From the NCBI GenBank assembly GCA_037974965.1, contig JBBPFI010000012.1, positions 930,001 through 994,000 on the forward strand: 64,000 bases of DNA, in the 5' to 3' direction. This stretch comes from Dacryopinax spathularia (Eukaryota; Basidiomycota; Dacrymycetes; Dacrymycetales; Dacrymycetaceae). A program made the position numbers and the translations under genes. Position 1 is the stretch's first letter. Each line of letters opens with the position of its first letter. Positions 39,369 to 64,000 of this stretch are shown piece after piece. The notes below the pieces were generated by a model. That model was not told where the DNA came from and did not search any database. It saw only the letters and a program-made list of their open reading frames with translations.

Positions 39369-41113
39369 TTATCGCGCAGCCGGCGCAGGTCGCTCAATAT
39401 CGATCAGCTCGACCGTCGTAGCCCACGTGGTCATCATCTCTTGTTTTCGTCTTGAAGTCCAGCGCGTACGCCAGGGAGGAGGCGTGATGAGCTCGGCGGT
39501 ATGATCCATTGGGGTGGGTTGCGTCGGGATGGCCGTGACTTGACCCATGGACTTCAGATTGAGGTATAGCCGGCAAGCCTGCAAAACGGGATCAGCCTGG
39601 TATACACGCTTGCCCCGCAGGCAATAACATACCGCTATAGGGCTGATGACGACACACCACCTAGAAGTCACAGTGTGAGACATTACTCAGGAGAAGTAGC
39701 ACGGGACTCACGGCAACGCGGCCAGCTGCAGACCGGGTCTTGATGTAAGTGAAAACACCATAATCACAAGTATGGCGGACGATGCTACACAGGCCATTAG
39801 TCCTCGCGCTCTAGGCTCCGTATAGCAGAACATACTGAACACCCTATCATTGTTGTTAGCCATGAGCAGTGACGAGGAAGGCAAAGTACTGACAAGCCAA
39901 AATAGATCGCCCCATCTCGGATGAGAAGCGAGCTCAGCGTTTCCATCGTCATCCGCTGTGCTTTCCTCCAGCCAGGGAAGAGTTTGGCGAGTGTAAGGGT
40001 GAACATGAGCACTGTCAATACTTTCTCAGTTCTCCCTTCCCCTGCACAAGTGCCAGCACGTACTGTTAAACACCAGAATAGCAACACTACAAGGCGTTCG
40101 TAAGAGTCAGATAGGGAAGGAAGAAGGATGAGAAGACGCACGCAACAATGCTGTAATTCCAATCCGGCACCCCAGTTGCCCCCAAGCAACCGAAATTGTC
40201 CGCGTCCTCCGGCTGGTTATTGTGTATCGAGATCTGGAACTCCCAGATGAAGAGTGCCACTTCGAGCTGGTTTGCGTGTCAGCCAACATGCGTCGTATCA
40301 GATCTCTTAGGGCGTACCATTATCAGTACTGCGCAGATGGCTGTGAGCAACTGTGATATGAGGAGAGATGGGCAAGGACGTACGGACGAAACAGCTTAAC
40401 AGGCCGCGTTTGAGTATTATGTCCCTAAACCAAAGGGTGGTGCCCGCGGTGCTGTATATCGCGCATACACGGACGAGGAGGAGGCTGTCGGCCGAGAGGG
40501 AGGAGAGGATGAAGAAGCTGTCGATCGACGGCACGTCAGCTTACACGAACGAAAGGTTGGGTTCTGGAGCATACCAGTATTCGACGGCGTTGAATACTCG
40601 ACAACTGAGACGCATGAGGACATGTATGCGGCGGGCGATTTGTGGACTTACAACTAGAAGGGATCAGGAATCGTTATATGCATAAAGGCTGAATGCACGC
40701 ACTCCATTATCCTCATTCGTGGATGAAACGATCGTCACCAGCCTACCCAACCTCCGCATCAGCATCTCCCCACACCTCAACCCATAACGACAGCCAGGGA
40801 AAACACAAGAAAGGGAGACTCACAACGACAGCCCGAACCCTCCATACCGCGAGATAAGGTACAACGCCTTCGGCACCGTCCATTTCTTCGTCCATACGAG
40901 CTGGGACTCGGAGTCGAGCGTAATTACGATTTCGTAGAGGAACATGGCGCTTGCTGCCCCTGAGTTTTGGTTAGTATCAGCCTGATCCCGAATGTGTCCA
41001 GGGAGTGGGAGGAGGAGGGAGAGGAAGGGAAGGGGGTGGGACGTACATCGTCCTTGGAGGTTGGCGGTGATATCTGCATCTGCCCAAAGGGATGGATCGG
41101 TATCGTTCGGCAT
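39369..41113 (-). CDS. DUF6533-domain multi-pass membrane protein
   Basis: Many short exons on the minus strand, beginning 41113-41047 and 40959-40824 and ending with the long exon at 39576-39369. The second exon carries the DUF6533 signature, AMFLYEIVITLDSESQLVW followed by KKWTVPKALYLISRYG. Further helices are readable in later exons: LLILSSLSADSLLLVRVCAIY, then VALFIWEFQ, then MACVASSAILVIMVFSL. A conserved cytoplasmic loop KLFPGWRKAQRMTMETLSSL precedes LIRDGAIYFG. The C-terminal tail is hydrophilic. This seven-helix family is abundant in Agaricomycetes and has no assigned function; a receptor-like role has been guessed from topology only. A truncated paralogue lies about 3 kb upstream at 43950-44870. 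Confidence 0.8.
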
Positions 41114-43949: not shown

Positions 43950-44870
43950 CGGGTCAGTCTCGAATCCCCAGCTAAGCTGGATCAAAGTCACTCCTCACGC
44001 CCCGCCTCAGTTCGGCGCAGATCAACCAGCTCGACCGAACCACCCCACATACTCCTCTCCTCCTTCTCACCCCTATGCCACCTCCCTCGTGTTCCCGGCC
44101 ATGCCGTAGGCGTATGCGGCCCCGTACTGCCACTGTTGCCTTCCGTCACTTGGGTCACGGTCCGCCCTCCTTGCCCTAGTTACAGACTTGAGGTTCAAAT
44201 ACAGCCTGCATGCCTACACATGTTCATTAGCAATCATTTTGATATCCATATGAGCGGATGAGGGGAAACCGACGGCTACGGGGCTTATGACGCCACACCA
44301 CCTGAAACCAGCTCTGAATCAGCTTGTGCGCTACATAGTGGGAAGGAGGAGGTCGGCGCACGGTAAGGCCGCTAGCTGGAGTCCCGGACGGGCAGTGAGG
44401 GAGAAGACTATGATGACCATGATGGCCGAGGACGCTAATACGCAGCGCAAAGTCCGAAACCTATCAGCGTAGGTCGTCATCTGCATGGAAGGAGGGACGT
44501 ACTGCACACCCTGTTCGCTTCGATGAGTCAGTAGTAAAGGGAAGAAAGGGAAAAGGGAAAGGAACGGACATCGCGAAGTAGATCATCGCCCCGTCACGGA
44601 TGAGCAGCGCGCTCAGCGTCTCTAATGATCGTCGCGCGCTGCGCTTCCCTCCAGCCCGGAAAGAGCTTGACAAGGGTGAGGCCAAACATGATCACACTGC
44701 GATATTTCTTTTTCTTCAAAGACTCCTTTCGGTTGAGGAGCGGGGCGTACGAATCGACGAGCTGAGTGAAATGATTGGACTAGCATTTAGAGCGACCAGC
44801 ATGAGAGCACCATTTCGTAAGGAGCGACAAATTGGGTTGGTCATGGAATGGTCGTCAAGCTGCTCTACAG
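43950..44870 (-). pseudogene. Truncated DUF6533-family paralogue
   Basis: Minus-strand blocks match the C-terminal half of the gene at 39369-41113 in the same order. LTLVKLFPGWREAQR matches LTLAKLFPGWRKAQR, ETLSALLIRDGAMIYFA matches ETLSSLLIRDGAIYFG, and LASSAIMVIIVFSLTARPGLQLAALP matches VASSAILVIMVFSLTSRPGLQLAALP. ACRLYLNLKS is identical. Splice sites between these blocks are mostly kept. The reading frame shifts near 44630 between REAQR and ETLSALL, and the N-terminal half with the DUF6533 signature is missing because PEX11 begins right after. It is therefore a broken duplicate, still fairly close to the intact gene. Confidence 0.75.
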
Positions 44871-48714: not shown

Positions 48715-49366
48715 TTAGGCTGTCGCGCTCTGCTGTTTGGCAGCCATGAGAGCCTCGGCCAGCATCACCTCCCGGTGGACGTCCTCTCCGAAGACGACCC
48801 CTTTCACAAACCACTTCTCCATCTCTTTCACAACTTCTTTCATCGCTTGCATTCTCCCGTCGACCGTCATTTCATACACCAGAACTACGAAAGCCGTCCT
48901 ATTCTCGTCTGTCGGCTTATCATCACTTGCCCTCCGTGCAGCCAGAAGTGGCTGGACGACCTCCAGAACCGTCGGTCGGAGCGCCCTCCACTGCTCGACG
49001 AGCGACTCCTTCCGCTTCGTGTATAGATCCATGCGCTTCACGGCTTCAGGAGCGTTGCGGTTCTCATAGGCGCGCCTTTGAAGCATTGTCAGCGAGGCAG
49101 TTTACTGGGCGGCTGGAACTCACTGCAATTTCAGGAAGTCATCCTGTATCCCATCCTCGCAGTCAACCCCATACATGGGCTGCAGCATCCAACTCCAGTT
49201 CAGAGCATCCACCAATTCTATCATCCGGACTGCGTCAATACTTTACTTTACACTACCAATAAACAAAGGACTCACGCCTGAGGAAGTCAAACGCCTCCGT
49301 GTTCAATTTCGCCTCAGGCGGACAGCACTGAATGAACGTGGTAAAGGAGACTGGGTTCATCTTCAT
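48715..49366 (-). CDS. Two-intron small helical protein family, member A
   Basis: Three exons (49366-49276, 49229-49124, 49075-48715) give 185 residues with a phase 1 then a phase 2 intron. The product is mostly helical: RMIELVDALNWSWML, then LVEQWRALRPTVLEVVQPLL, and a family block VYEMTVDGRMQAMKEVV followed by EMEKWFVKG. No signal peptide or membrane helix. I recognise no known domain. Members B, C, E and F downstream share length, intron number, intron phases and strand, and B and C also share sequence pattern, which argues for a tandemly expanded gene family. The start could also be the second ATG at 49360. Confidence 0.75.
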
Positions 49367-49831
49367 GCGACGCGGGTGACACTGGCTCGACGCGATTCCT
49401 TGCGCACTAGTGGGGACTATTGGTGGATCTTGGGTTCGTTCGGACATACCGGACTGTCCCTCACACACCTTATATTCGCCATTTGGCCTGAGGCCCAGCA
49501 GGCCTGACCCTACTTGGCTCAGATTCTACGTAATAGTCAACACGAACAAATGGGCTTGAAGTGGCGTTTGAAGGGCCAACTATGGCCTCTTGCTTCCACC
49601 TATACGACTGGGTCAGGGGTTGGCCCAGTCGACAGATGGAATCATTCAATGTGCGTTATTTTCACTTGATATTCAAAGTTCGGCGGACCATCACTGACTT
49701 AGTTGATGTTCTCTCATCTGCAGTGCTGCAATTCTCGAGAAAAGCGCGGCTCAACGTCATATTCAGATAACTCAGAGTGGAATAGGGATAGTTCATGTGC
49801 AGCGTCCCGCGCTGTTCTGACACGCCTGCCA

Positions 49832-50593
49832 TTACAGGAACACCTTCTCATCAACCGATGGCAGCAAGAAGAGGGGCACACCACGACGTCCACCAACCCC
49901 CAGCCGTACAAGCTCCATAACCAGACGGAGCTTGGCCCTAATCGCTGCCCTCTTCAACGCCTTCTGCAGTACTTTTCCAGCCGCTCGCCTCGCGTCCCAC
50001 CACCTCGTCGCCTCTCTGTCAAGCTCAACCTCCCATACCTCGGCTTTGTCCTTCCATTCCCTCTGTTCTTCGAGCACCCCCTCCAAGACATTCATCGTCC
50101 CATCCCTCTCCATCGTCTCATACAGCTCAAAAAAGGCTTGCATGCTCGGTCCGCATCTCATGTTAACCCCAAAAAGGAAAAACAGAAGCCCTTGAGAATC
50201 CATCGCCTCGTCGTACGCATCATTGATGGGTTGTAGAAGCGCCGAGATTTCGGCATCCAACCGCTCGCCTTCCGCTCGGAGCAGAGCCCACTCCTGCCTG
50301 CAGCGGTCAAGCTGTTCCTGCACACCGGATTCGCCCTCTTCAGCCATTGGGAGCAGATAGCCCCTTGTAAATGCATGTCAACTTCTGTCGGGTCGCAGGA
50401 TACTCGAAGGTAGGACTCACTCAATGCTGTGGAACCGGAAAAAAGTAAGTAGCAAGGTTGCTGAAAGGACGCCTTTCCGTACAGTCCAGTCGACCACCCA
50501 CTTCTGTCCTGGTTCGCTCAACTTGTCAGCTTATACGTGCCCACCAGTTCAAGGAGAAGGCTCACTCTCTCTGAATTTGGTGGTCGTATGCAT
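49832..50593 (-). CDS. Two-intron small helical protein family, member B
   Basis: Three exons (50593-50566, 50508-50421, 50363-49832) give 215 residues, intron phases 1 and 2. It starts MHTTTKFRERQ, similar to MHHTTKLHVQ of member C, and its second exon has the same length as in C (88 bases). After a hydrophobic stretch (GVLSATLLLTFFRF) it has a long coiled-coil-like segment (QEQLDRCRQEWALLRAEGER, then LDAEISALLQPI). The family block LYETMERDGTMNVLEGVL follows, and then a basic C-terminal helix (GKVLQKALKRAAIRAKLRL). No known domain recognised. It lies 465 bases upstream of member A with no other gene between. Confidence 0.72.
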
Positions 50594-51571
50594 TCTTTCG
50601 TAATGAGAAGGTTCGTTTTGGCTGGTAGTTAGCAAGCGGAGCGATATACGCTCATGGGACCTTCTCAGCCTGCGGTTTATATAAGGCGCAGATAGAGCGG
50701 AAATAGTACAGCCCAGCGCCGCTAGGAGGGCATGGCCTTTCCCGCATGGTGACAATGAAAGCATACACGCGGCGGATGTAGCCTGGTCTCCGGCCGCTAG
50801 AATGTCAGCACCTGAAAACGCCCAGCCGACTTAACCTTTATGACGCTGGTCTTACGGGGAGAAAGGGCAAGTGCGATCTCAGTGAGTCACACGATGTGTA
50901 TACTACAGAATTAGCTCATGCCTTTCCTGCCTCGTCGCCCGAGTGCTGCATTTCAAAATATGAGGACTTCGCAATAGAAATTGGGTAACTAGTGACTTGC
51001 TCGGCGATTTGAATTTGGGTAATGCCAAGCGCATACAAAGGGGATTTGCCAGTCTCAAGGTCACTCAGTGAGACTCAACCGGAACACGACAACAGAACGC
51101 CAGCCAGCCGCTATCTCCGCTTGCAAGGTCCATTGGTCTAACTGCGGTTAACTAAAGGTAGACGCTGTCGAGGTGAAGATTGATGGCATTGATTGGCTCG
51201 TCTTTGCAAAGCGTCCGATAGATCAGACGAGCCCCGAAGTGGGACCCATCGCCGAAGGACAGCCTGACAGGCCGGCAAGAAAGTTGGGGCGGTGTTCAAT
51301 GTTGTGCACAGTCGCAACATTCCGAGCTCATTGACGGTATCAAAGATGAGTAGAGGAGAAACGTCGGGCAGAACCGCTTGTCAAAACGTCGCTCTTTCGT
51401 GAGTCATATGCGGTTGCCAAGCCCAGCTCGACAACATCGTCCGGGAGAATTACATATAACCACTACTACCGGGCATTAAGCGAGGATCTGAAAGAGGTTA
51501 CGGTACATGACAAAAGAGAATAGAGTCATCACGGGAAGTACATGGCTCTATCCCCGACTCAACGGGGCATA
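50594..51571. other. Intergenic stretch inside the small-protein array
   Basis: About 980 bases between members B and C. No exon chain with the two-intron pattern could be built here, and no other gene or RNA is visible. The first part should be the promoter of member B. Confidence 0.45.
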
Positions 51572-52296
51572 TTATTCGGACGGAGCCAGCTCGTGCCTGC
51601 CCTCATCAATGTTTCCAGGCGCCTCGCGACCCGCCTCACCCAACAATCTTGCATGAGCAGCTTCTCCCTGCAGCTGATCGATGAAATCGTTTGCACTCTC
51701 CATCCATGCCTTCCCTTCATCCAGAAGTTGCTTCACAGCCGTCATCTCCCCACCCAACTCCATCGCGTCGAAAAGATCGAGGAAGGCCTGCGCCTTTGTT
51801 TCGGAGATCAATTCAAAACGGACGGACCCAGACTCGTCGTAGTGCGTCTCGGGGGCCTCTTTCGCTGCCTCCGAGAGCGGGCCCAGGATTTCCCACAGGG
51901 TGGCCTGGAGAAGGTCGAACTTGTTCTTGAGTTTGTCGTGCGTCTCGGTGTGGCCTTTCAGGCGATCAATGGCCCCGATTTCTTTGCTGTTTGCGGCCAG
52001 CTGACGGGACTGAAACCTTTCACCGTTCGGCCCAATTAGCATGTCAATGGACGGCTAGGGAACCCATTGTAACTCACTTGAACATCTCAAACCGAATCCC
52101 CACAAAAGCGTCCTTCAGGACGAGGCAGTGATACTGGGCAAGAAGGTCTTCGACCCGGTCTTGCTCTGAAAGCAAAAAAAGTCAGCTTGAGGACACATCC
52201 CGAGAGAAAATCGATAATCCCACTCTTTACGAACTCGCGTATGATGTCCATTGTGAGCTGAGAGTTCTGTACGTGGAGTTTCGTTGTGTGGTGCAC
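51572..52296 (-). CDS. Two-intron small helical protein family, member C
   Basis: Three exons (52296-52224, 52165-52078, 52016-51572) give 201 residues. The first intron is phase 1 with a weak donor (gtggga) but a very good branch site and acceptor (gctgac, T-tract, ag). The second is phase 2. Helical segments are QDRVEDLLAQYHCLVLKDAF, DKLKNKFDLLQATLWEILGPL and the family block LFDAMELGGEMTAVKQLL followed by DEGKAWMESANDFIDQLQGE. The tail is hydrophilic. No known domain. Sequence similarity to A is visible around the second intron (GIRFEMFKFQSRQ against GIQDDFLKLQRAY). Confidence 0.72.
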
Positions 52297-52818
52297 ACCA
52301 GCTCGCCGACTCGTTCTGTTTATATAGGGAACTTCGAGCGAAGATAAAGCGGAGATAACGTACCGGTCCAGCGCAACGACCTGGCCTTGCCCCGGACAAT
52401 AACCTCTAGGTACGCGGACGACCGGCCTTCAGTGGGTCCCACTCGGAGACGGCTGGAAGCCGAAAGCGTTCGCCGCACCCGTTTCCTTTACCTGTTCGCG
52501 ACTATCGTCTCCAGGCGATTGTCGTTACCTGTCTCGCTCGTTGACCGAGACATTGCGGGTTGCATCCCAGTGCAGCCATGCCCTGCTCACAGCATCCCAC
52601 GCTCCCTCAGCTGCCTGCATTTCTGTCAAAGACAGGTATTTTACGTTGATTGGATTGAATTGGCGCACCGTTACAGGTGATTCTTAATTGCATGTGCTAC
52701 ACAAACCCAGAAATTGAAAAGAAACCTCAGCCGCTTCCTTCAAACAAGCGCATCTTGCGGGCTTTGGCTTCCTCAAGCCTCGAGAGGGTATCGAGCCCGC
52801 TTGCCTCTGGCGCATCAT

Positions 52819-54166
52819 CTACGGGGTCACCTCGTCGGGCAACTCGACGATCTTCTCTTCCCATCCATTCTGCTCTAGCTCGAACAGCTTCTTCGCGATG
52901 ACTTTGTTGCCCTCTACGCTCGGATGCAGCCCGTCCGGGACAAGGTTGTCGTCCAGCCAGCCTTGTATGGGTATATGATGTATGCGCGGCTTGTTCTCGT
53001 CCCCTTCCCACGCATGTCGCAGCTCTTGCACTAGTGTGGCCATCGCATCCTGGTAGCGGGAATAACCGACAGACACGGAGTAAAATGGTCCCTGGAGCAT
53101 ATATGAGGCATGCGGTGGACAGGATAGAGAATTAGCATACCAGGATGACGATTTCTTTCAGAGTCTCGGAGAAGGTATCTGCAAGGCGCTCCACGAATTT
53201 ACACATATTGTCGACGAAGTGAGGTACCGAAACGCCGAAACCCTGATCGTTCGCCCCTGCACACGGATGTCAGCAGGTGCGGCGTTAGAGGCGCATACAA
53301 CGACGAACCAAGCGCAATAATGATCATGGTAGGCGGATGGTACAACGGACTCCGTTTGGGGTCCCAGCGGGCTTGAGACCACCATGACTTCTGGAGATCC
53401 AGTCAATCTCATAAAACAATGCATATTGTCGAAAGGAGTTGATTCACCTGCCAGAACCTGCTCACCATCCCGTCTTCCCAGACACCATCTCGCCGATCCA
53501 CCAATAGGATCCCAGGATAAGCCACACTCTCAACAGCAATCTTCCTTCCCTCAGCTTTGAGAAGTCGACCGAGCAGGAGTGGATAGCCGTCCCAGGCGTT
53601 GTGTGGTGGGATACCGTACACAGCTCCTATGGTGAATGCACAGGAGATCGAGTCACCGATGACGAGGAGTCTTTCGTTAGGCTCTTCTTCCTTAGGTACA
53701 GGTAGCAAGCAGTCCTTCTGATCTGGAGTTAGTCACGCACGCGCGCTATCATCTACAAAAGACGTACTGAGTCACAGAGGAATGCGGCGACCTCGATGAC
53801 CGATCCCCAGTCCGCCATGTACAGGGTGCATACACGCTCCTCGTCCCCCTCGGCGGGATTATGATACAACACCACGATCTCCCCCGATCTGAAATTCCTG
53901 ACTGTACGCATATGCGCCGCCGTCTCGAGCTCCCCGGGCTTGGTGACGCAGAAGACGAGCATCGGTTCCTCCCCATCCGGCCTGGTGAGACGCGCGCTGT
54001 TCGGTCCTCCTTCAACGGCGAGGAAACCACCGGTAAAGTGAAAGGTGAAGGATGACGCCGGCCAGGTCGCAAGTAAACCTTGAGACGGCGTGGTTTCCCA
54101 TCGACCGCTGAAGGAGATCGGTGCTTGTGCGGCGAGCACTCGTGTACGAGAGGCGGTCGTGGACAT
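52819..54166 (-). CDS. SGNH/GDSL esterase with N-terminal beta domain (CE2-like)
   Basis: Five exons (54166-53768, 53717-53448, 53390-53309, 53256-53141, 53091-52819) give 379 residues. The first 150 residues are beta-rich (for example SSFTFHFTGGFLAVEGG) and resemble the jelly-roll module in front of CE2-type acetyl esterases. The SGNH blocks follow: LLVIGDSISCAF (nucleophile Ser), the Gly of AVESVAYPGI, ALGANDQGFG (Asn) and DGLHPSVEGN (Asp and His). No signal peptide is evident, so it may act inside the cell on acetylated sugars or another ester. It sits in the middle of the small-protein array on the same strand, with about 450-520 blank bases on each side. Confidence 0.87.
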
Positions 54167-54623
54167 GACGCGTCGACTGCGGGGTGGGTGAGGATGCTTG
54201 TGGGGTATATCTCTATCAGAGGGCTGCCCACGATGGTCGTCGAGGTCAACCTGATGATCAGAACCGGATGGTCGTCAAGGGCTAAGGAAGAAGCGGTCGA
54301 GTCGGATGCCAACGACGACTGCCGCAGTCCATGTTGTCGGTTCCCCGCCGTCTGAGAAGCCGTCCCTTGAAGCTGTACGCAAAAGGCAGAAGCGTCGGTC
54401 CACGCCATTTACGGGTTCTCACCTATTCCCGGACTACACAGCCGCACGGAGGAAAGTAGCCCAATGAAGACCCAGGTTCATGGTTAACTACTGTCTCTTA
54501 TCTCCGTCTGATAAAGAATCCCGGTGAGATACGCTACAAGCCATAATACATGTGGACATCGCCGCGCAGTGCTCCAACCAGCAAAGCTACTACTCGGCAT
54601 ACCGCTTCGGTCCAGTTCAGACG

Positions 54624-55268
54624 TTACGGAGTAGCTATCCGAAGCACCAGGGAATCTCCTACGGTAACTTGCAGCGCCGTACGTCGCGTCAAGTTGTCAA
54701 CTCTCTCAGATATCTCCTCCGAAACTGCTGTGTACTCGTTCAAACATGCTTGGAACTTCTCGATGCCGCCGAGGGAGTCCGCGCGCAAGAGGTGTATGAT
54801 CGTGGCAGGTGTCCGATGTCTTGTGAAGAATGCAAGCCGCTTGCATTCTCGGTTGAGGCGCCTTAGAGCGCGGCCGAGCGCTTGCCTTCGTTCCAACCAC
54901 CGTATGAGTAAGCGGAGCCATTCTTCAAGACATACCAAGAGAGCGTGGTACGCATCCAGATCGGAAGAACGGATACTTCGTAAGTCTCATCAGCATGACT
55001 TCCTGCCCTCACCGGTTCTCCCAACTTACCTTCCGCTTAGTTGCTTGATCAGCTTGAATCCATCCTTTATTCTCACTCCATCCCTATCCACCAACTCTTC
55101 TACAGACGCCCGATAGGCCCTGATACGAGCAACTCTCTCGTCAAGCCTTTCGTCTGACGGAAGAAATCAGAAGCTGCAATCCTCCAGGTGTCGGCGTTAC
55201 TTACACAGATCGTCCTTCGCGCGAGGCATCGTTTTCTTGTCCTGGGTGTTTGTGGCCGACGAACTCAT
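54624..55268 (-). CDS. Two-intron small helical protein family, member E
   Basis: Three exons (55268-55205, 55153-55030, 54975-54624) give 179 residues with phase 1 and phase 2 introns. The start MSSSATNTQDKKTMPRAKDD is polar. Helices follow: YERLDERVARIRAYRASVEE, then a strongly basic Leu-rich helix EEWLRLLIRWLERRQALGRA, and the family-like block HLLRADSLGGIEKFQACLNE followed by YTAVSEEISERVDNL. No recognised domain. Similarity to A-C is mostly in layout and in the GG(E/M/I) block, so membership rests largely on gene structure. Confidence 0.65.
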
Positions 55269-56358
55269 AATGCAGAAGTGGTCGTTTGGGGGACAGGTGA
55301 GTAGGAGACCTTCGTTGCGGGAATGAAGGACCTGCTCGGCAGTGCTTGCACCGCTTTTATAGGGAATCCCAGAATTCTTAGGAAGACAGAAGCTCGTATC
55401 AGCCGGGCGGAGTTTGAGAAGCGTTGCCAATCGTCCGAACAATAGGCGACGAACGAGTAGACGACGTCGATTCACAAAAGGAACAGACAAGCCCTCTCTA
55501 TTTATTCGGCAAAGGCCGCACACCCTTGGAACCACCAAGGCCACGTGTATGCGGCGAGGCAACCAGCACTAGTAGACACGAGTCACAACGCAACAAGCGC
55601 AGTCAAAGGGGTAACGGGTAGTGCCAGGCACCTCGGCAGCAGCGGCGACAAAGCAAACGTATGACTGCAACACGCAGTGCGGAATTAGTGGTAATATCCC
55701 CGCACCTCGGAATCCAGCTGCTCTTCCTTCTTGACGAGACCTGGGAGTCTTCATGCGCAATTCGGATTTCGGAATGAAGAATGTATCCGTTTCTTCATAT
55801 TGTGGTTCAACAGGTTGAGGGAAGAATTTGCTCTCTGAATTGTGTGTTGCTCAACGCTTAGACACTTGTAAAGGACGTCTTCCTCTACCTCACCGACTCA
55901 ACGTGTGGAGTTACGCGACGCTCTGATCGACATGACTCATCATGTTGGAGCGAGGCACTGAGGGGAGATGTTTCTAGGAAACAGTTTGCGAGATTACGCC
56001 GAGAGGGCAGGCGAGACCAGGAGAGGATCGACCAATGCGATTCTAAACTGCTCAGGAGGGAATAATCAAGACGTCTGTGAAGCACGCTGGCTCGCTATTG
56101 ACCGCTCCGCGATGTTCCTGTGAGGGGATCTTACTTATTCCGAGACCACCGTCTCGAATACCATGTAGTCTTGATCGCAGCTTTGCTCCTATCCATACTC
56201 ATGTCCTGCTCGTTCCGTACTCCCGTCGGCTGTCTCAGCCTGTCTGTCCGTGTGATCTCCGTTTACGGTTTAATGTGAGCCATGCATTGACACGTTGCAA
56301 AAGGTTGCCCTAACGTAAGCTAGTACGGCGATTGGAAAAGCAGCATTCTGCGGTTGAC
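55269..56358. other. Intergenic stretch inside the small-protein array
   Basis: About 1.1 kb between members E and F. Short random frames only; I could not build a further two-intron gene. No repeat or RNA gene recognised. Confidence 0.4.
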
Positions 56359-57035
56359 TCAACAACAAGTATGCGCCAGCTGCGAACTAGGCTGGGGAGC
56401 ACGACTAGCCAACCGCGCGGAATAGTCAGAGGCAAGAGTGGCGAATCGAGTACCAATCTCTTGGTGCTCATGGTTGCCCGCGCTCTCCTGCACCTCAGCG
56501 AAAAGCCTCGACAGTATCCCGGTCTTTTCTTCGTGCTTGCGCCACGAGTCCAGCAGAACGAGAACGGTGGACTCAATCGTTGGCCGCCGCACAGGGAACG
56601 ATGGAACGCTTTGTTCGCCATGTGGACTCGGGCGAAGGTTCTTCATCCAGATGTCAACGTACCGCATCATCGTCGTAGAGAAGCCAACGACGTCTTCAAT
56701 ATGGGCGAGCGCAGAGTCGTTCACGTAACCTTCGACGAACATCCACCGCATCTCGAAGTGGTCCCACATAGGTAAGGGCCTATATGGCAGGATCAGACAA
56801 ATCATTCGCAGACAATGGGTTTTTACTCACGTTTCCGCGATGAGCCGTATGGTCTCCTCCAGCATCAGCGTTTCCTGCTTAAAGACCTTGTAGAACTGGG
56901 CCGCGGTTTCCGTCAACCAGTCCATAAACTCCTCTAGCGGTTGTACTGGGACACACGTCAGCCATGGCAGTACGTCACCGTGCAGGTTTACGTACGAGCC
57001 AAGATCCGAGGGTCTTGTTCCAGTTGAGTAGGCAT
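56359..57035 (-). CDS. Two-intron small helical protein family, member F (divergent)
   Basis: Three exons (57035-56996, 56945-56831, 56779-56359) give 191 residues, again phase 1 then phase 2. The first intron has perfect signals (gtacgt, gctgac, cag). The product is helical: LEEFMDWLTETAAQFYKVFK, then ETLMLEETIRLIAE, HIEDVVGFSTTMMRYVDIWM and STVLVLLDSWRKHEEKTGIL followed by SRLFAEVQESAGNHEHQEI. No known domain. Sequence similarity to the other members is weak, so I group it by size, strand, neighbourhood and intron plan. Confidence 0.6.
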
Positions 57036-58868
57036 GGAGCCCTGTAATGCCAAAGGGCAACGGGCTTGGGAGAGCGAGCGAGCGGCGGAGAGATAGAAAC
57101 AAGATGAAGTCGTATAGACTCCAAGGCGCGGTATTCGCACTCCTTTAATACCCAAATGGGTCCCATGTGTTTGCCTGCCTGGGGCTTTTTCGGGTGACTC
57201 TTTATGATTGGGCTTACGAGGGCATAGGCCATACGCGCCCGGCCTCCTGAGCGGCGATGGAAAGGGATGAGACCGAGAACACATGGACCGCCGACACGTA
57301 ATAGCACAACCTCATGCATGGCATCCTCTAAGCCCATCCAGATCCACGATCCCGCTATCGCCGCAAGACGTCACGGTATGTCGGAATAAACAGTGCTATA
57401 ACCGCACCTTAGAGCCAGGTTTTCCTTCCTCCTCTGCATCATCGGTAAAACCCAAGTGCTACGCATAGTGGGGTCCTCAAAACCCTCTATACGGGGTCCA
57501 TAGTGGCGGTGTCCCCTATGCTGGTCCCTTGCTTCTATGGAGTTCTGGGCTCTACTATGGGAGTGCTATGGCGAGACCGGATTGCGCCTCCATTCTGGGT
57601 TATGGCCTCGGATTAGACAGAGGCACTTCAACAGAGGTTCCCCTGGCCTGCCAGACCCAGGAGCTGCACTTTGTTAACCCATCTCGTATCATTTTCTCAG
57701 TTGAACGCGTTCGAAGATGAGCATCAGCTGCATTTGCGCGCTTCCGCTGTCTCGTTTCCACGCGCGCTCCTGCCGAGCGCTGCCGGTCGGTGGCTGAGCT
57801 CTTGCCTCCGCGCGACCGCGCGCGCTAGTGTCTGGCAGACCTTCGACTGGACGGTCTGGCGAAGTCCTTACCAGTCCTGGTTCATCCCCTCTAGTCTGCT
57901 ACCTCTCCTGTTCATATCTATCTGTAGTGATCAGCGACTGCACGAGCCTTTATTCCTTCACGACATCGTATCTGTGTGACTGAAGTGTCATTGCTTATCT
58001 GGCTGAGGGGCGCCCCCCGTAACTAAACCGCAGGCGAGTGGGAGCCTACGCACGTGTGAGGCGACGCTAATCAGTATGGTGTAGTGCGTCGTTCCTGCAT
58101 ACTTGGAGGCGGCGTTGGTTTGCGCATCCCTCGATTGCAAAGCATCTCCGAATCCGCCGTTGACTATCGAGTTTGATCTCTCCATTCGCTGTCCTCGATG
58201 GATGGTCCCCTCTACAAGGTTAGCAACTGTTTGTGCATCTTGATCTAGGGCATATGACCGACCTTCCAGACCTTGCAAACGGAGCCCCCGCCGCCGCCCC
58301 TGGAATTCGGGGAAGAAATCGCGTATGATTGTGGGCGCCTCGATCCGTACGTGCTCATTTCGCCAACTGAAGATGGTCTTCCTTCAAACAAGACGAGGAA
58401 CGAGGTCCCCAATTCGCACCCTAGGGGTAACGATCATGGTATGGTCAGTTCTTGGTTCAAAATCAAGTTCTTCTTCTGATCTATATCAGGGTCGCCTGCT
58501 ATAAGCAGTTCTACAGTAAGCTGTCACCTGCAACCCGATTCATCTCAACTGAGTACGGGGAAAGGCTAGTACGCAGGACCGAGGCGAAAGTCCCATGGAC
58601 CGATCCTCCACTACGCGGAGTCCAGAACCACTACTGGGTAGACCTCGCTTTCTGAATAGAAGCGCACTGTCGTCTTTGGAGCCAGCACTCTATGCTAGTT
58701 ATGAGGCGGTCTCTCAATATAGCTCCAAGAGGAAGGAATATTCATCTCACACTAGTCATGCTCAACATGTCTACGAAAACGCTTACGTGACACGGGCTGA
58801 AGTATAGTAACCCCTCTCTCCTCAGTTCTCAGACTTACGCTCTCTCACAACAGAACGAGCACGAGGAA
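57036..58868. other. 1.8-kb stretch with no confident gene
   Basis: Contains a plus-strand frame from about 58273 (FGEEIAYDCGRLDPYVLISP) followed by a good donor near 58440, and a minus-strand frame at 58278-57988 with no ATG start. Either could be part of a small gene but I cannot complete one. The last bases hold the promoter of the first DUF6532 gene. Confidence 0.35.
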
Positions 58869-60266
58869 ATGTGGGAACAAACATTGCCACCCGAACCGAA
58901 ACGACGACGCCTGGCCTTACAAGATCCGGATCATCCCTCAACACCAAACGCGGTGCGATCTCCCGCGGTACCCGGCGCCTACAAGTACCGCCTGGTGCCC
59001 GTGGCAACCTTACCGGTGTATCATCAGGAAAGCTCGCCATCTCGGCCCCCTCTCCCCTCTTCCGAAGTCCCTCTTTCCCAAGAATCTCCGCCTGAACGCG
59101 CTGGTTCATGGCTTATCTGGCCGATTTCGCCGAACGACAAGAAGGCCAAAAATTTGGCAAGCTATCAGCCTGAAATGCGGAACGTACTCGAAATAGCGAT
59201 CAGACAAATTCGGATGTATCTCTTCGTCAAGCATCTATATCCCTGTGCCCCGGAGCTCTCGAAAGCTATTGAATACTGTAGGGTCGAAGCGAATCGGCAG
59301 GCCAAACTGGCAAATCACGATGCACCCGAAATCGACTTCGGCATATATCCTGGGCAGCAAGCTCTGGTGAGTGGCTTTGCCGACGGGCCAAGGTTGCTCC
59401 TAAACTTGATTAGATCAAGCGTACTGTGACTTCGGCGCGCGGTATGCTGAAAACCAAGGCTCTTCAAGTTATCCGTTCAGAATACCAAGATGCCGTCAAA
59501 CTGTCGGATGAGACGATTGCTCTGGAAAATGCTTGGTATACCGCAAGAACGAAGAAAGCGAAGGCAGAGCTCGCCGGGCAGCTGGACTACAGTAGGAACT
59601 TGTCGAAAGAGGCGTTTTCTAACTTGAGGGGCGATCTACACTTCATATATCGTGATTTTGACTATCTTAAGGTGCCCCCTAGTCCCCTTCAACCTCAGTT
59701 TCGATGCTGACGCTTTCAATATAGAAAGACTTCCCTGCGAAGGGACCGTTCCTGCATCCAGCGGTCGCTGAACTCTGTGCAAAGTTGGCGGCGTACATGC
59801 TACCTGGAGATTCCGATGACCCTACAAGGCATCCTGATCTATTCTCCTGTATATCGCCCCGCTTGATCGCTGCTGCCGTAACGGGGGTACTGTGAGCATT
59901 CAGGTCTCTATGGCAGTCCTAACCATGGTAACAGCTCTATCACGGATTCTCGTGTTACGAATCCGGCACTTTCATCATGAAGGACTTCAAGGAAGACGAT
60001 GACGATAATATCACAACTTACGCCGATGTCATTGCACAACTGGAGGATTATGAAGCTAAGAGGCCCGTCGAGTACGAGACAATGAGGCGATCTCTGACGA
60101 AAGAGTACACGTACGTGCTGCGTTGCGCGATGCTTGGGTGTGCTAAGTCGCTTGCAGTGCTCGACTCCTGCGATTGCGACGCCAGGCAACGCTGCCCTCG
60201 GAGACCACGACTGCCACGACTGGCCGCAAGTTTAAGTTGAAATTGGCGGATGATGATTGTAATTAG
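58869..60266 (+). CDS. DUF6532-domain protein, copy 1
   Basis: Five exons (58869-59366, 59414-59671, 59725-59886, 59935-60110, 60158-60266) give 400 residues. A Pro/Ser-rich N-terminus contains a basic cluster (PKRRRLAL) that could be a nuclear localisation signal. From about residue 115 the DUF6532 pattern begins: EIAIRQIRMYLFVKHLYP, then ARGMLKTKALQVI, LRGDLHFIYRDF, FLHPAVAELCAKL, IAAAVTGLYHGFSCYESG and TYADVIAQLEDYEA. The tail is basic (GRKFKLKLADDDCN). DUF6532 is largely confined to Agaricomycetes and its function is unknown. It is co-oriented with a second member starting 720 bases downstream. Confidence 0.78.
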
Positions 60267-60985: not shown

Positions 60986-63900
60986 ATGGGGCGTTACAAG
61001 ACATCACGCCAGCAAGACAAGGTTCGGGAGAGGAAGCAGGCTGCAGTCGAGTATCGTGAAAGGAGTGATGAATGGCTGCGAACGGAAGACAACAGTGGTA
61101 TGTCTTCTCTACAGACGCATCCTAAGAGCTGCGCGCTCATTGCCCAAGGCGAAATTAACTCGCCGAACGAGTATGGCTCTGACGAGGAGAGCAGCCCCAC
61201 CGAGGTCGCGAGAGGTCCTGGTACGCATCTGCAGAAGTGCCCACCGACTAGACGGCTGAATTATTCCTAGACTTCTTCGTGTTTGGAGAGATGGATGAGT
61301 CGCCCATGAGACCACCAAGAAAGACGAATCGAGGGCGCCAAGCTTGTGAAGAGGACTGTGAAGAAGACCTGGATGACCAGGGACGCGCTTCGACGCCAAG
61401 GTCAGACGACCGACTGCAGGCACGAAGGAAGAGGCTGCCAAAGTCTCGAAAGGTGCACTGGGACCTGCATAGAGAGCATCATAGCGGATACAGGCAGGAG
61501 GAAAGGGCCGATGTGGGCAATACGAACAAGAACCGTGCGGATATGCGAAACATCTTCGGACGAGGACGACTCGGTCCGAGCAACGCCGAGGACAGCGAGG
61601 AGAGCGACTCGGACAATGACGTTTCTAATAAGGGTCCGCAGAAGTTCAACAGTAGGAACGCGTCGGAAAGGGCCGCATCGCACAACCGTGCTAGGGGGCA
61701 AGAAGACAAAGGTAGGGGTTCCCAGTTCTGCACATTGACGTTCCTCACGACACCGCGCTGTGCAGGAACCACCAAACGAGCAAATCAAGATGGAAGGGCT
61801 GGTCGCCAATGCCGGGGCGAGCGAGGCAGTGAAAACAGAGATGAGTTTGAGAAAATCCAGGTGCGCCGTCTTGCTGTGCGTTATAGTGGTCCTGGATAAC
61901 ACTGACTGCACCCATGACAGTTTGCTGTACGCACACCTGAAACTGTGAGGCACCAGCCCCGCATTAGAGGCCTGGAGAGGCGGAGAACACTTGCCCGAAA
62001 CCAAACGGTTTCGTCCCCCAGGACAGCCAATGGAAAATCTTCCGGGGAGCATCATCGGATGTGTGAACTCTCACCGACTTCCAAGTCTTTGGCCTTCCAC
62101 GCCAACAAGAAGTTTCGTGTCATGATAGCGAACTGCCACGGTTTTCCCAAACCTCTTGTCAGTACGCAATGGGCACGGAAGGCGACCAAGTCATCTAGCC
62201 GGGAGCTTGGTCTGGAAACAGAATACTACGTAAATCGCTTCAAGTCGGATCCGCCGTATGCACGACAACTCCAGGATATTGTAGGTTTATCTAGTAATAG
62301 AATCTCATCAGTATTCTAACATCTCCTTAGATATGCCAACGACAGGCGCAGCTCCGGGGTGAAGTGAAGACAGCTGCTTCCGACTTGCTACTGGAGCATT
62401 ATAAGCTACCCTTCTCGAGGGGAGCTGAAGCCATTGCAAGCGCAATCGAGGACCTAATCGATGAGTCCACGTTCGTATACTCAGATCTTTGGGTGAGTCT
62501 ATTTGCCTTGTATGAGACATAACCGACCCTCTCCAGAGTTCAGAGCCCGTCAAGATCTTCGAGCACCCCATGATCCAAGCCGTGTATACGAGCTCGTTCT
62601 TCAAAGACCGAAGAAGCGATGGAGTCGTCTTTAAAGAGGTTTTTTGCCAAGGCCGGCCGCCCCTCCTTGCCCTCATTGTTACCGCGGTGAGAACTGGTCA
62701 TGGAAATGTGTGGATAATGAGGCTGACCAATCATAGATACATTGTGCTCTCCAGCAGTGGGCAAGCGGAGAGAAGAAAAGCGGAACGGTGCACAAGTTTA
62801 CAGCACAAGTATGGGCACCGATATATGAAGATCATCTATCGAATATCACGGAGTTTTCGGAGGCTTTCCCGAAAAAGTACAAATGGATCATGGACCAACT
62901 GTTCGTGAACAGTCTGTGCGTATATGACGTTTCCATGGCTGCTTGCTCGGAAGCGAGTCGCTCATCGAATGATAGGAAAGCCAGCGGTGCCACCGTTGCC
63001 AAAAACAGAAAGCCTTCCCGCTATGTGGGATCCTTGATTCAAAGACTGAAAGCGCAAGGCGATGAAGCAGAGAGTGAAGACAGCGCTGTCTCACATGATA
63101 CATGCCAACACGCAGATGGAGGCGGCGTACACGGGCAGGATTTGAACCATATGGGAGATCCTCTCGATCGTCTCCATGATAAAGGCCCACTCGGTGAAGA
63201 TGGGTCCGCTGCTTCGGCCCATGCATCAGAAAGCGACAGCGACACCGGGTTACTGAGTGCAAGCAAAGTCCATCACGGCGGACTACATGGCTCGTCCAAT
63301 TCCGTTCTTGACGCAGAGGCGCGGAAGGAGGGCTGGGAAGCGTCGCCGACCTGGTCACCCTTCATCCTTCCAGTGGACACGCTAACCCAAACGAACGCTT
63401 CCGGTCGATCCACGTCGGGATTCGAACAGGCCAGTCTGTCTCCGCAGGCCTGGATTCACAGGATGCGTACTCTGCCTTCGCTCGACATCAACACATCCGC
63501 CGCGGACGTCCAGCATACTCCAGAGACCCCGAGTAGACTGGCACGACTTCCCCTTGCGAACGTGGAGTCTTGTAACACTGATGAAGTCACGGGGAACGAA
63601 CAACTGGCTCGGATGGACCAAGACGAGGGCCGCCGGCCTGATGCTGATGGACGTTTCCCAGGCGATGATCGGCCTGTAAATCCAAGCCTCGGTCAAGGGG
63701 CAAAGGTCATGGTGCAACCTGAAATCTCTCCATCCGTCAACTCCGCAGACCTTGGCGAGCGGCTTCGTAATAGCCTCTTGTCCGATCGGCAAAGCCCACG
63801 ACCGTCTGCCCAAGCGTCGATTCAACCCTCTGCAGAATTCATTCGTCTCAGGAAAATCGATTTTGAGGGTACAACTGCGCCGGATGGTACAATCGTGCGG

Positions 63901-64000
63901 AGCACGCGGCCAATTCAACCTCCGTCCTCTCGAAAGAAGGCAAGCAGACCCAAGCTCCCCAGAGCAACGGAGAACTTGGCAGCTTCGCCGGAACGCGACC
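60986..64000 (+). CDS. Long DUF6532-domain protein, copy 2 (3' end outside window)
   Basis: The first exon (60986-61220, MGRYKTSRQQDKVRERKQ) is joined over intron 61221-61270 to an exon rich in Arg, Glu and Asp (SNAEDSEESDSDNDV). Splicing between about 61700 and 61950 is ambiguous. From about 62060 the DUF6532 core is clear: FRVMIANCHGFPKPLVS, LRGEVKTAASDLLLEHY, IDESTFVYSDLW, KIFEHPMIQAVYTSSFFKD, RSDGVVFKEVF, LALIVTAIHCALQQWASGEK and VWAPIYEDHLSNITEF. Introns in this core are 62281-62330, 62493-62536 and 62687-62736. After the core a disordered Ser/Asp/Gln-rich region stays open to the window end. The long basic-acidic N-terminus and charged tail suggest a nuclear or chromatin-associated protein, which is inference only. 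Confidence 0.75.

Follow-up and report, generated by a model that had tools for sequence, protein, structure and literature searches.

A small, strongly diverged orphan gene family and a separately duplicated neighbour in the basidiomycete Dacryopinax spathularia

On the minus strand of a 64,000-nucleotide stretch of the Dacryopinax spathularia genome (the window, C12:930001-994000, on contig JBBPFI010000012.1 of a 29.2 Mb genome assembled into 24 contigs) lies a row of five small genes, designated A, B, C, E and F, each predicted to have three exons separated by a phase-1 and then a phase-2 intron. Are these genes one tandem family whose structure has been kept better than its sequence, as an earlier note on this DNA had proposed? 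The five genes look real, but they do not look like one array of five. The proposal holds for A, B and C, leaves E as a possible but unproven member, and is not supported for F, which looks like a separate gene copied in. We put at roughly 0.6 the probability of the joint reading in which A, B and C are a diverged tandem orphan family, E is possibly an older copy, F was copied from the locus of its relative F', and the family products act as hairpin binding modules.

Genes A, B and C Form One Diverged Tandem Family

Gene A (185 aa, 48715..49366) was spliced in silico from exons 49366-49276, 49229-49124 and 49075-48715, gene B (215 aa, 49832..50593) comprises exons 50593-50566, 50508-50421 and 50363-49832, and gene C (186 aa with a corrected start, 51572..52251) comprises exons 52251-52224, 52165-52078 and 52016-51572. 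The first two exons of B and C have equal lengths (28 and 88 nt), which bears out the common 88-nt second exon pointed out previously. The three-exon models of the earlier note, ends and phases included, stood for A, B, E and F, but its start for C (52296) is a GTG. We prefer the ATG at 52251 for C because exon 1 then measures 28 nt, as in B; the donor is GTGGGA, with its GT at 52223, and the first intron is 58 nt long (57 nt in B). Eight of nine open spliced models of C starting from ATGs have a phase-1 first intron and one has phase 0, and the corrected C still keeps the phase 1, 2 plan. For B, a single open ATG model has a GTNNG donor. The N-terminal MH-x-TTK pattern once ascribed to B and C proved to be an artefact, as in C it lies upstream of the preferred ATG. 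The C model was picked with B in view, and most comparisons were made with earlier C models differing in their first residues; the comparisons with A, B, E and F were then repeated for the corrected C.

Mutual identity among A, B and C is about 25%, and the similarity signal sits in exon 3. Tested against 300 shuffles, local BLOSUM62 scores reached z 12.3 for A-C, 10.9 for B-C and 5.1 for A-B, and the 15 pairs formed by six open reading frames (ORFs) antisense to the five genes, taken as a control, gave a maximum z of 3.4. With the corrected C and 500 shuffles, the values were 12.4 with A, 11.1 with B, 0.7 with E and -1.1 with F. The block of the form hhcxh..GGxMxxhxxhh, reported as common to A, B, C and E, is significant only among the first three. 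Within the genome itself, C retrieved B at E 0.016 and A at E 3.1; searches with B and with A retrieved C, at E 0.010 and E 1.2 respectively, besides weak matches elsewhere. The phase-2 second intron falls at the same place in A, B and C, within four alignment columns as judged by predicted splice sites. B and C also have a promoter block in common on the minus strand, at 50686..50719 in B and 52338..52374 in C (z 5.6, equalled in 0 of 200 shuffles); only one of 400 random genomic windows matched B equally well and none of 400 matched C so. When the 250-bp upstream regions were compared in 15 pairs, B-C and F-F' alone exceeded all 200 shuffles. A, B and C are thus one orphan family that arose by tandem duplication and has strongly diverged. 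Duplication in a basidiomycete fungus would have produced the three copies, which may then have diverged until about a quarter of their residues matched.

Predicted Fold and Possible Action

An AlphaFold2 model of C exon 3, built together with A and B, has a helix at residues 2-53, a small strand pair, a helix at 72-87, a break at the GG and a helix at 90-131, with a mean predicted local distance difference test (pLDDT) of 72 and a predicted template modelling score (pTM) of 0.51; GG positions in this model and in that of E were counted by hand. Fold searches with the C model returned generic antiparallel helical hairpins only; among known systems, helical-hairpin dimerisation domains such as that of ING4 (PDB 4afl) come closest. 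A hydropathy scan found no strongly hydrophobic 19-residue stretch in any of the five proteins (largest mean 1.11; that of B at residues 14-32).

With moderate confidence, these models point to a helical fold for the A, B and C proteins, and the product is likely a cytosolic helical hairpin. In each of these small proteins, a long helix would lead through a turn into a short helix and, after a glycine break, into a second long helix, the whole forming an antiparallel hairpin. Helical hairpins commonly pair with themselves or with partners. Given the predicted fold and the absence of a strongly hydrophobic segment, the most likely action would be that of a cytosolic protein-binding module or adaptor that pairs with itself or with partners and has no enzymatic activity. 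Once duplicated and changing fast, the copies would be free to take on different partners.

Gene E Is a Possible Member

Gene E (179 aa, 54624..55268, minus strand, exons 55268-55205, 55153-55030 and 54975-54624, phases 1 and 2) is a harder case. Four open ATG models of E have GTNNG donors, and in all four the first intron is in phase 1. When the A/B/C block profile was run on E, however, the best window scored -3.3 and lay one residue off the register of the earlier note, which itself scored -17.3. That best window was reached by 12% of 1000 shuffles (p 0.12), and 23 of 579 other ORFs did equally well or better, so that the claimed block is not significant in E. All seven pairs involving E or F had z of at most 2.72; the best of them, B-E (z 2.72, p 0.013, among 10 pairs), did not align the GG block. 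An hhalign comparison of E with A/B/C gave a probability of 0.2% (E 0.31) in a region other than the block, and a genome search with E found only E itself among the best candidates scored.

Other traits bring E nearer to the family. Its second intron ends in AAG, as in A, B and C (TAG in F and F'); AAG is the rarer intron end. Structure prediction, which the earlier note had proposed as a check, gave similar helix layouts for C and E: the E exon 3 model, built from one sequence (pLDDT 67, pTM 0.46), has helices at 3-50 and 56-66, a break beside the GG, a helix at 70-98 and a strand pair. This terminal strand pair is absent from the C model. We give membership of E in the A/B/C family even odds, somewhat below our former estimate because the best profile window is one residue off the earlier register. 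If related, E may be an older, further diverged copy.

Gene F Belongs to a Different Family and Appears to Have Been Copied In

Gene F (191 aa, 56359..57035, minus strand, exons 57035-56996, 56945-56831 and 56779-56359, phases 1 and 2) has a traceable relative. A genome search with F found one further copy, F', at C12:1035470-1036048, which is 62% identical and has the same phases and the same first two exon lengths (40 and 115 nt). Against A, B and C, F scored z -0.95 to 1.02, and its best comparison, with A exon 3, gave p 0.03 as the best of F's four pairs and among 10 pairs in all. Judged by their sequences, F and F' are a different orphan family with no sequence relation to A/B/C.

F lies in a duplicated segment (56069..57438, minus strand) whose other copy, at C12:1035194-1036522, is 49 kb away (blastn, 74.9% over 1386 columns). 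At its upstream edge, approximately 57400..57438 on the minus strand, the segment carries the last codons and the stop of a SurE gene, and at the F' locus this frame continues into a SurE domain (Pfam SurE, E 2.2e-9) in the full gene, C12:1036483-1037235, which lies right of the window and adjoins F'. The likely source is F', with F as its copy, because the F segment has only the last SurE codons and the full gene adjoins F'. In this event, the end of the gene row would have received a segment of about 1.4 kb, promoter included, from the F' locus. Another block, 55912-56062, has its counterpart roughly 1.6 kb farther along at the F' locus, where the SurE end is partially present a second time (C12:1033334-1033423; 30 residues, 90% identical, about 3 kb from the SurE gene). 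Right of the window, the surroundings of F' also include a Plavaka transposase ORF (C12:1030323-1031762, Pfam E 9.7e-63, about 3.7 kb from F') and an RNA-dependent RNA polymerase ORF (C12:1040028-1040834, Pfam RdRP E 3.2e-25, about 4 kb from F').

The common exon plan might still mean that A, B, C, E and F/F' are ancient relatives of one superfamily, with the phase 1, 2 plan as the surviving trace of a common origin. In the set made by our gene finder, a crude one used for phase frequencies and as evidence against the models, phase 1 accounted for 36 of 100 introns and phase 2 for 21 of 100, which leads one to expect the plan in fewer than one in ten three-exon genes; 3 of the 15 three-exon models nevertheless had it, F included. 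The AAG end common to A, B, C and E and the modelled helices of E, which break at the GG as in C, would fit such an origin. They are countered by the low scores of the seven E and F pairs, the best of which misses the GG block, by the hhalign match in another region, by the terminal strand pair that the E model has and the C model lacks, and by F, whose second intron ends in TAG and which arrived with the SurE segment. We consider one superfamily quite unlikely, and slightly more so than before because of the register shift in E. It is equally doubtful that only the exon plan and a helix-glycine-helix layout would have persisted, with local segmental copying, as for F, and a conserved part joined to a fast-changing partner-binding part.

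Selection on F and F'

The pair F/F' allowed selection to be examined. Over 181 aligned codons, the ratio of nonsynonymous to synonymous change (dN/dS) was 0.61, with segment limits chosen after a first scan giving 0.23 in the conserved last third (codons 119-181, Fisher p 9e-4) and 0.32 in codons 1-32 (p 0.025). These low values argue that the frame is translated. The middle gave 1.16 for codons 53-118 (p 0.61) and 1.11 for codons 33-118 (p 0.75), not significantly above 1.

The earlier note had suggested conflict, recognition or symbiosis roles; in such a reading, the array would diversify under selection from a partner, a rival or a parasite. That A, B and C are so little alike although adjacent would agree with this, and the nearest hint for such a role is the fast-changing middle of F/F'. 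Amino-acid-changing sites in codons 33-118 differ at 0.33, compared with 0.18 in 727 non-coding columns (p 8e-6). However, silent sites (0.33 overall) also exceed the non-coding columns, and we therefore do not claim positive selection; the dN/dS of the middle is not significantly above 1, within limits set after the scan, relaxed constraint explains the middle equally well, and F stands outside the A/B/C family. We regard a conflict role as unlikely.

Searches for Relatives

Relatives of the diverged tandem family were sought widely. Pfam gave nothing above curated cut-offs for full-length A, B, C, E or F, or for exon 3 of A, B and C; the weak matches of B (best TolA_bind_tri, E 0.0072) fell below them. 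None of the five exon-3 pieces hit a PHROGs family. Among 5.8 billion proteins, no relatives were found for the A/B/C profile (7993 candidates scored) or for F (56 candidates scored). A nearby HAD-type ORF, searched as a control, found 29 proteins at E <= 1e-20, none above 46% identity, the named organisms being Vararia, Armillaria and Penicillium. The protein database therefore holds no close kin of this fungus, which makes these empty searches weak evidence, also for the lineage-specific status proposed in the earlier note. A literature search, judged by titles and abstract openings, found no paper naming these genes.

Searching the genome with each of the five genes revealed no further members except F' among the best candidates scored, and scanning 4230 neighbourhood ORFs with the A/B/C, F/F' and E profiles added nothing below E 0.7. 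Weak matches of B on C2 (E 0.041) and C1 (E 0.28) were read as three-frame text only. In the PDB, the A/B/C profile had one weak match, 6xor (E 0.1). The F/F' profile matched 9mn2, an IgA Fc receptor, at E 3.5e-4, which we took as a chance likeness of helical sequence, F alone being without a match up to E 1. Viral contigs yielded 50 and 93 pattern matches, none of them confirmed, and a viral origin was set aside. Right of the window, a G-rich simple repeat built of GGGAGGACGTC-type units occupies C12:995386-995850; an A-like match at C12:995386-995499 was rejected as part of it.

A further match concerned COG7, a subunit of a Golgi tether, from whose N-terminal part A/B/C might derive. A matched the COG7 locus of its own genome at E 0.0115 (local z 10.2), and C followed with z 2.2 in nearly the same register, but the A match was selected as the best of the whole genome and B aligns elsewhere. 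Moreover, exon 3 of A, B and C showed no Pfam COG7 match up to E 10, in a search where the COG7 piece itself scored 3.7e-24; the A/B/C profile gave that piece 5.1 bits, and the piece is one open frame with no intron at that place. Homology to COG7 at family level was already disfavoured and is not supported, and such a derivation is very improbable.

Gene Models and Evidence Against Them

Codon usage was modelled on 53 long ORFs from a 264-kb neighbourhood, the array excluded, and the resulting scores ranked the predicted frame best of the three sense frames in both exon 2 and exon 3 of all six genes (A, B, C, E, F and F'). A pattern match placed TATA-like boxes 75 to 115 bp before the ATG in five of the six, and none by that pattern in A.

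Several results weigh against the reading in which A, B and C are a tandem family of hairpin modules and F a copy of F'. In B exon 3, one antisense frame outscores the predicted one (0.028 vs 0.019). Whole-gene coding scores are weak in B and E (0.014 and 0.011 bits/nt): the training ORFs have their 10th percentile at 0.020, above both genes, and among 53 shadow ORFs the two would rank between the 75th and 90th percentiles. The crude gene finder favours a single exon for each of A, B and C. At none of its three settings does it detect E, and at one of them it recovers the three exons of F. The splice junctions themselves are predictions from the DNA. Exons 1-2 showed no similarity in any of ten pairs by local alignment (earlier C model) or in any of eight by a semi-global test; the sole positive test there, an ungapped comparison of B with C over their first 38 residues (8 matching positions, p 0.001, 20,000 shuffles), is somewhat favourable because the C model was chosen with B in view. 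The predicted fold covers exon 3 only, at a pTM of about 0.5, and the five models differ (mean pLDDT 52-72). Finally, a longer copy could have left the SurE end at F as a remnant, in which case the copying would have run the other way.

The gene finder's preference, the weak coding of B and E and the several legal forms of the C first intron would all suit single-exon A, B and C genes starting from an ATG in intron 2 or exon 3 (49086, 50347 and 52042, respectively). Yet the predicted frame takes the top score in exon 2 of all six genes, the B-C match spans exons 1-2, and F/F' keep their splice sites along with the constraint on their first 32 codons, although F belongs to another family. There is, in our estimate, a slim chance that the three-exon models are wrong.

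Neighbouring Features

Between C and E, and outside the family, lies a probable GDSL/SGNH esterase gene on the minus strand, identified from ORFs and extending approximately over 52819..54274. Its last piece matches Pfam Lipase_GDSL (E 4e-4) below the curated cut-off, the piece at 53756-54274 has no Pfam match, and 53559-53983 resembles DNA at about C12:927555-927994, left of the window, in pieces 69% identical. Elsewhere in the window, an ORF at 58791-59426 has no Pfam match, a DUF6532 ORF (62737-63999, Pfam E 2.5e-6) extends past the window end, and a dispersed repeat occurs at 44585-44695 and 39906-40012 (77% identity across 111 columns). Together, the DUF6532 gene and the Plavaka transposase near F' point towards a basidiomycete of the mushroom type.

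Relation to Known Systems and Significance

Lineage-specific, or orphan, tandem gene families are a general class in fungi. Like them, A, B and C lie side by side on one strand as strongly diverged paralogues with no known domains; they differ in having only three provable members and in that secretion of the products is not indicated. The Y/F/WxC effector candidates of powdery mildews (PMC2886064), an example of families whose gene structure is better kept than their sequence, are reported as small diverged proteins grouped together with an N-terminal motif. The genes studied here resemble that group in being small diverged proteins that stand as one, but they carry neither such an N-terminal motif nor a strongly hydrophobic N-terminus.

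The orphan family at this locus is genuine but small, and the row does not amount to an expansion of five genes. In its small and clean form it shows an orphan family of a fungus whose relatedness can still be proved, together with a caution, as a neighbour with the same exon plan (F) looks like a separate gene brought in by copying. Given genomes of sister species, A, B and C could show how fast the sequence signal is lost in an orphan family, and F/F' provide a comparable pair with one conserved part and one loose part.

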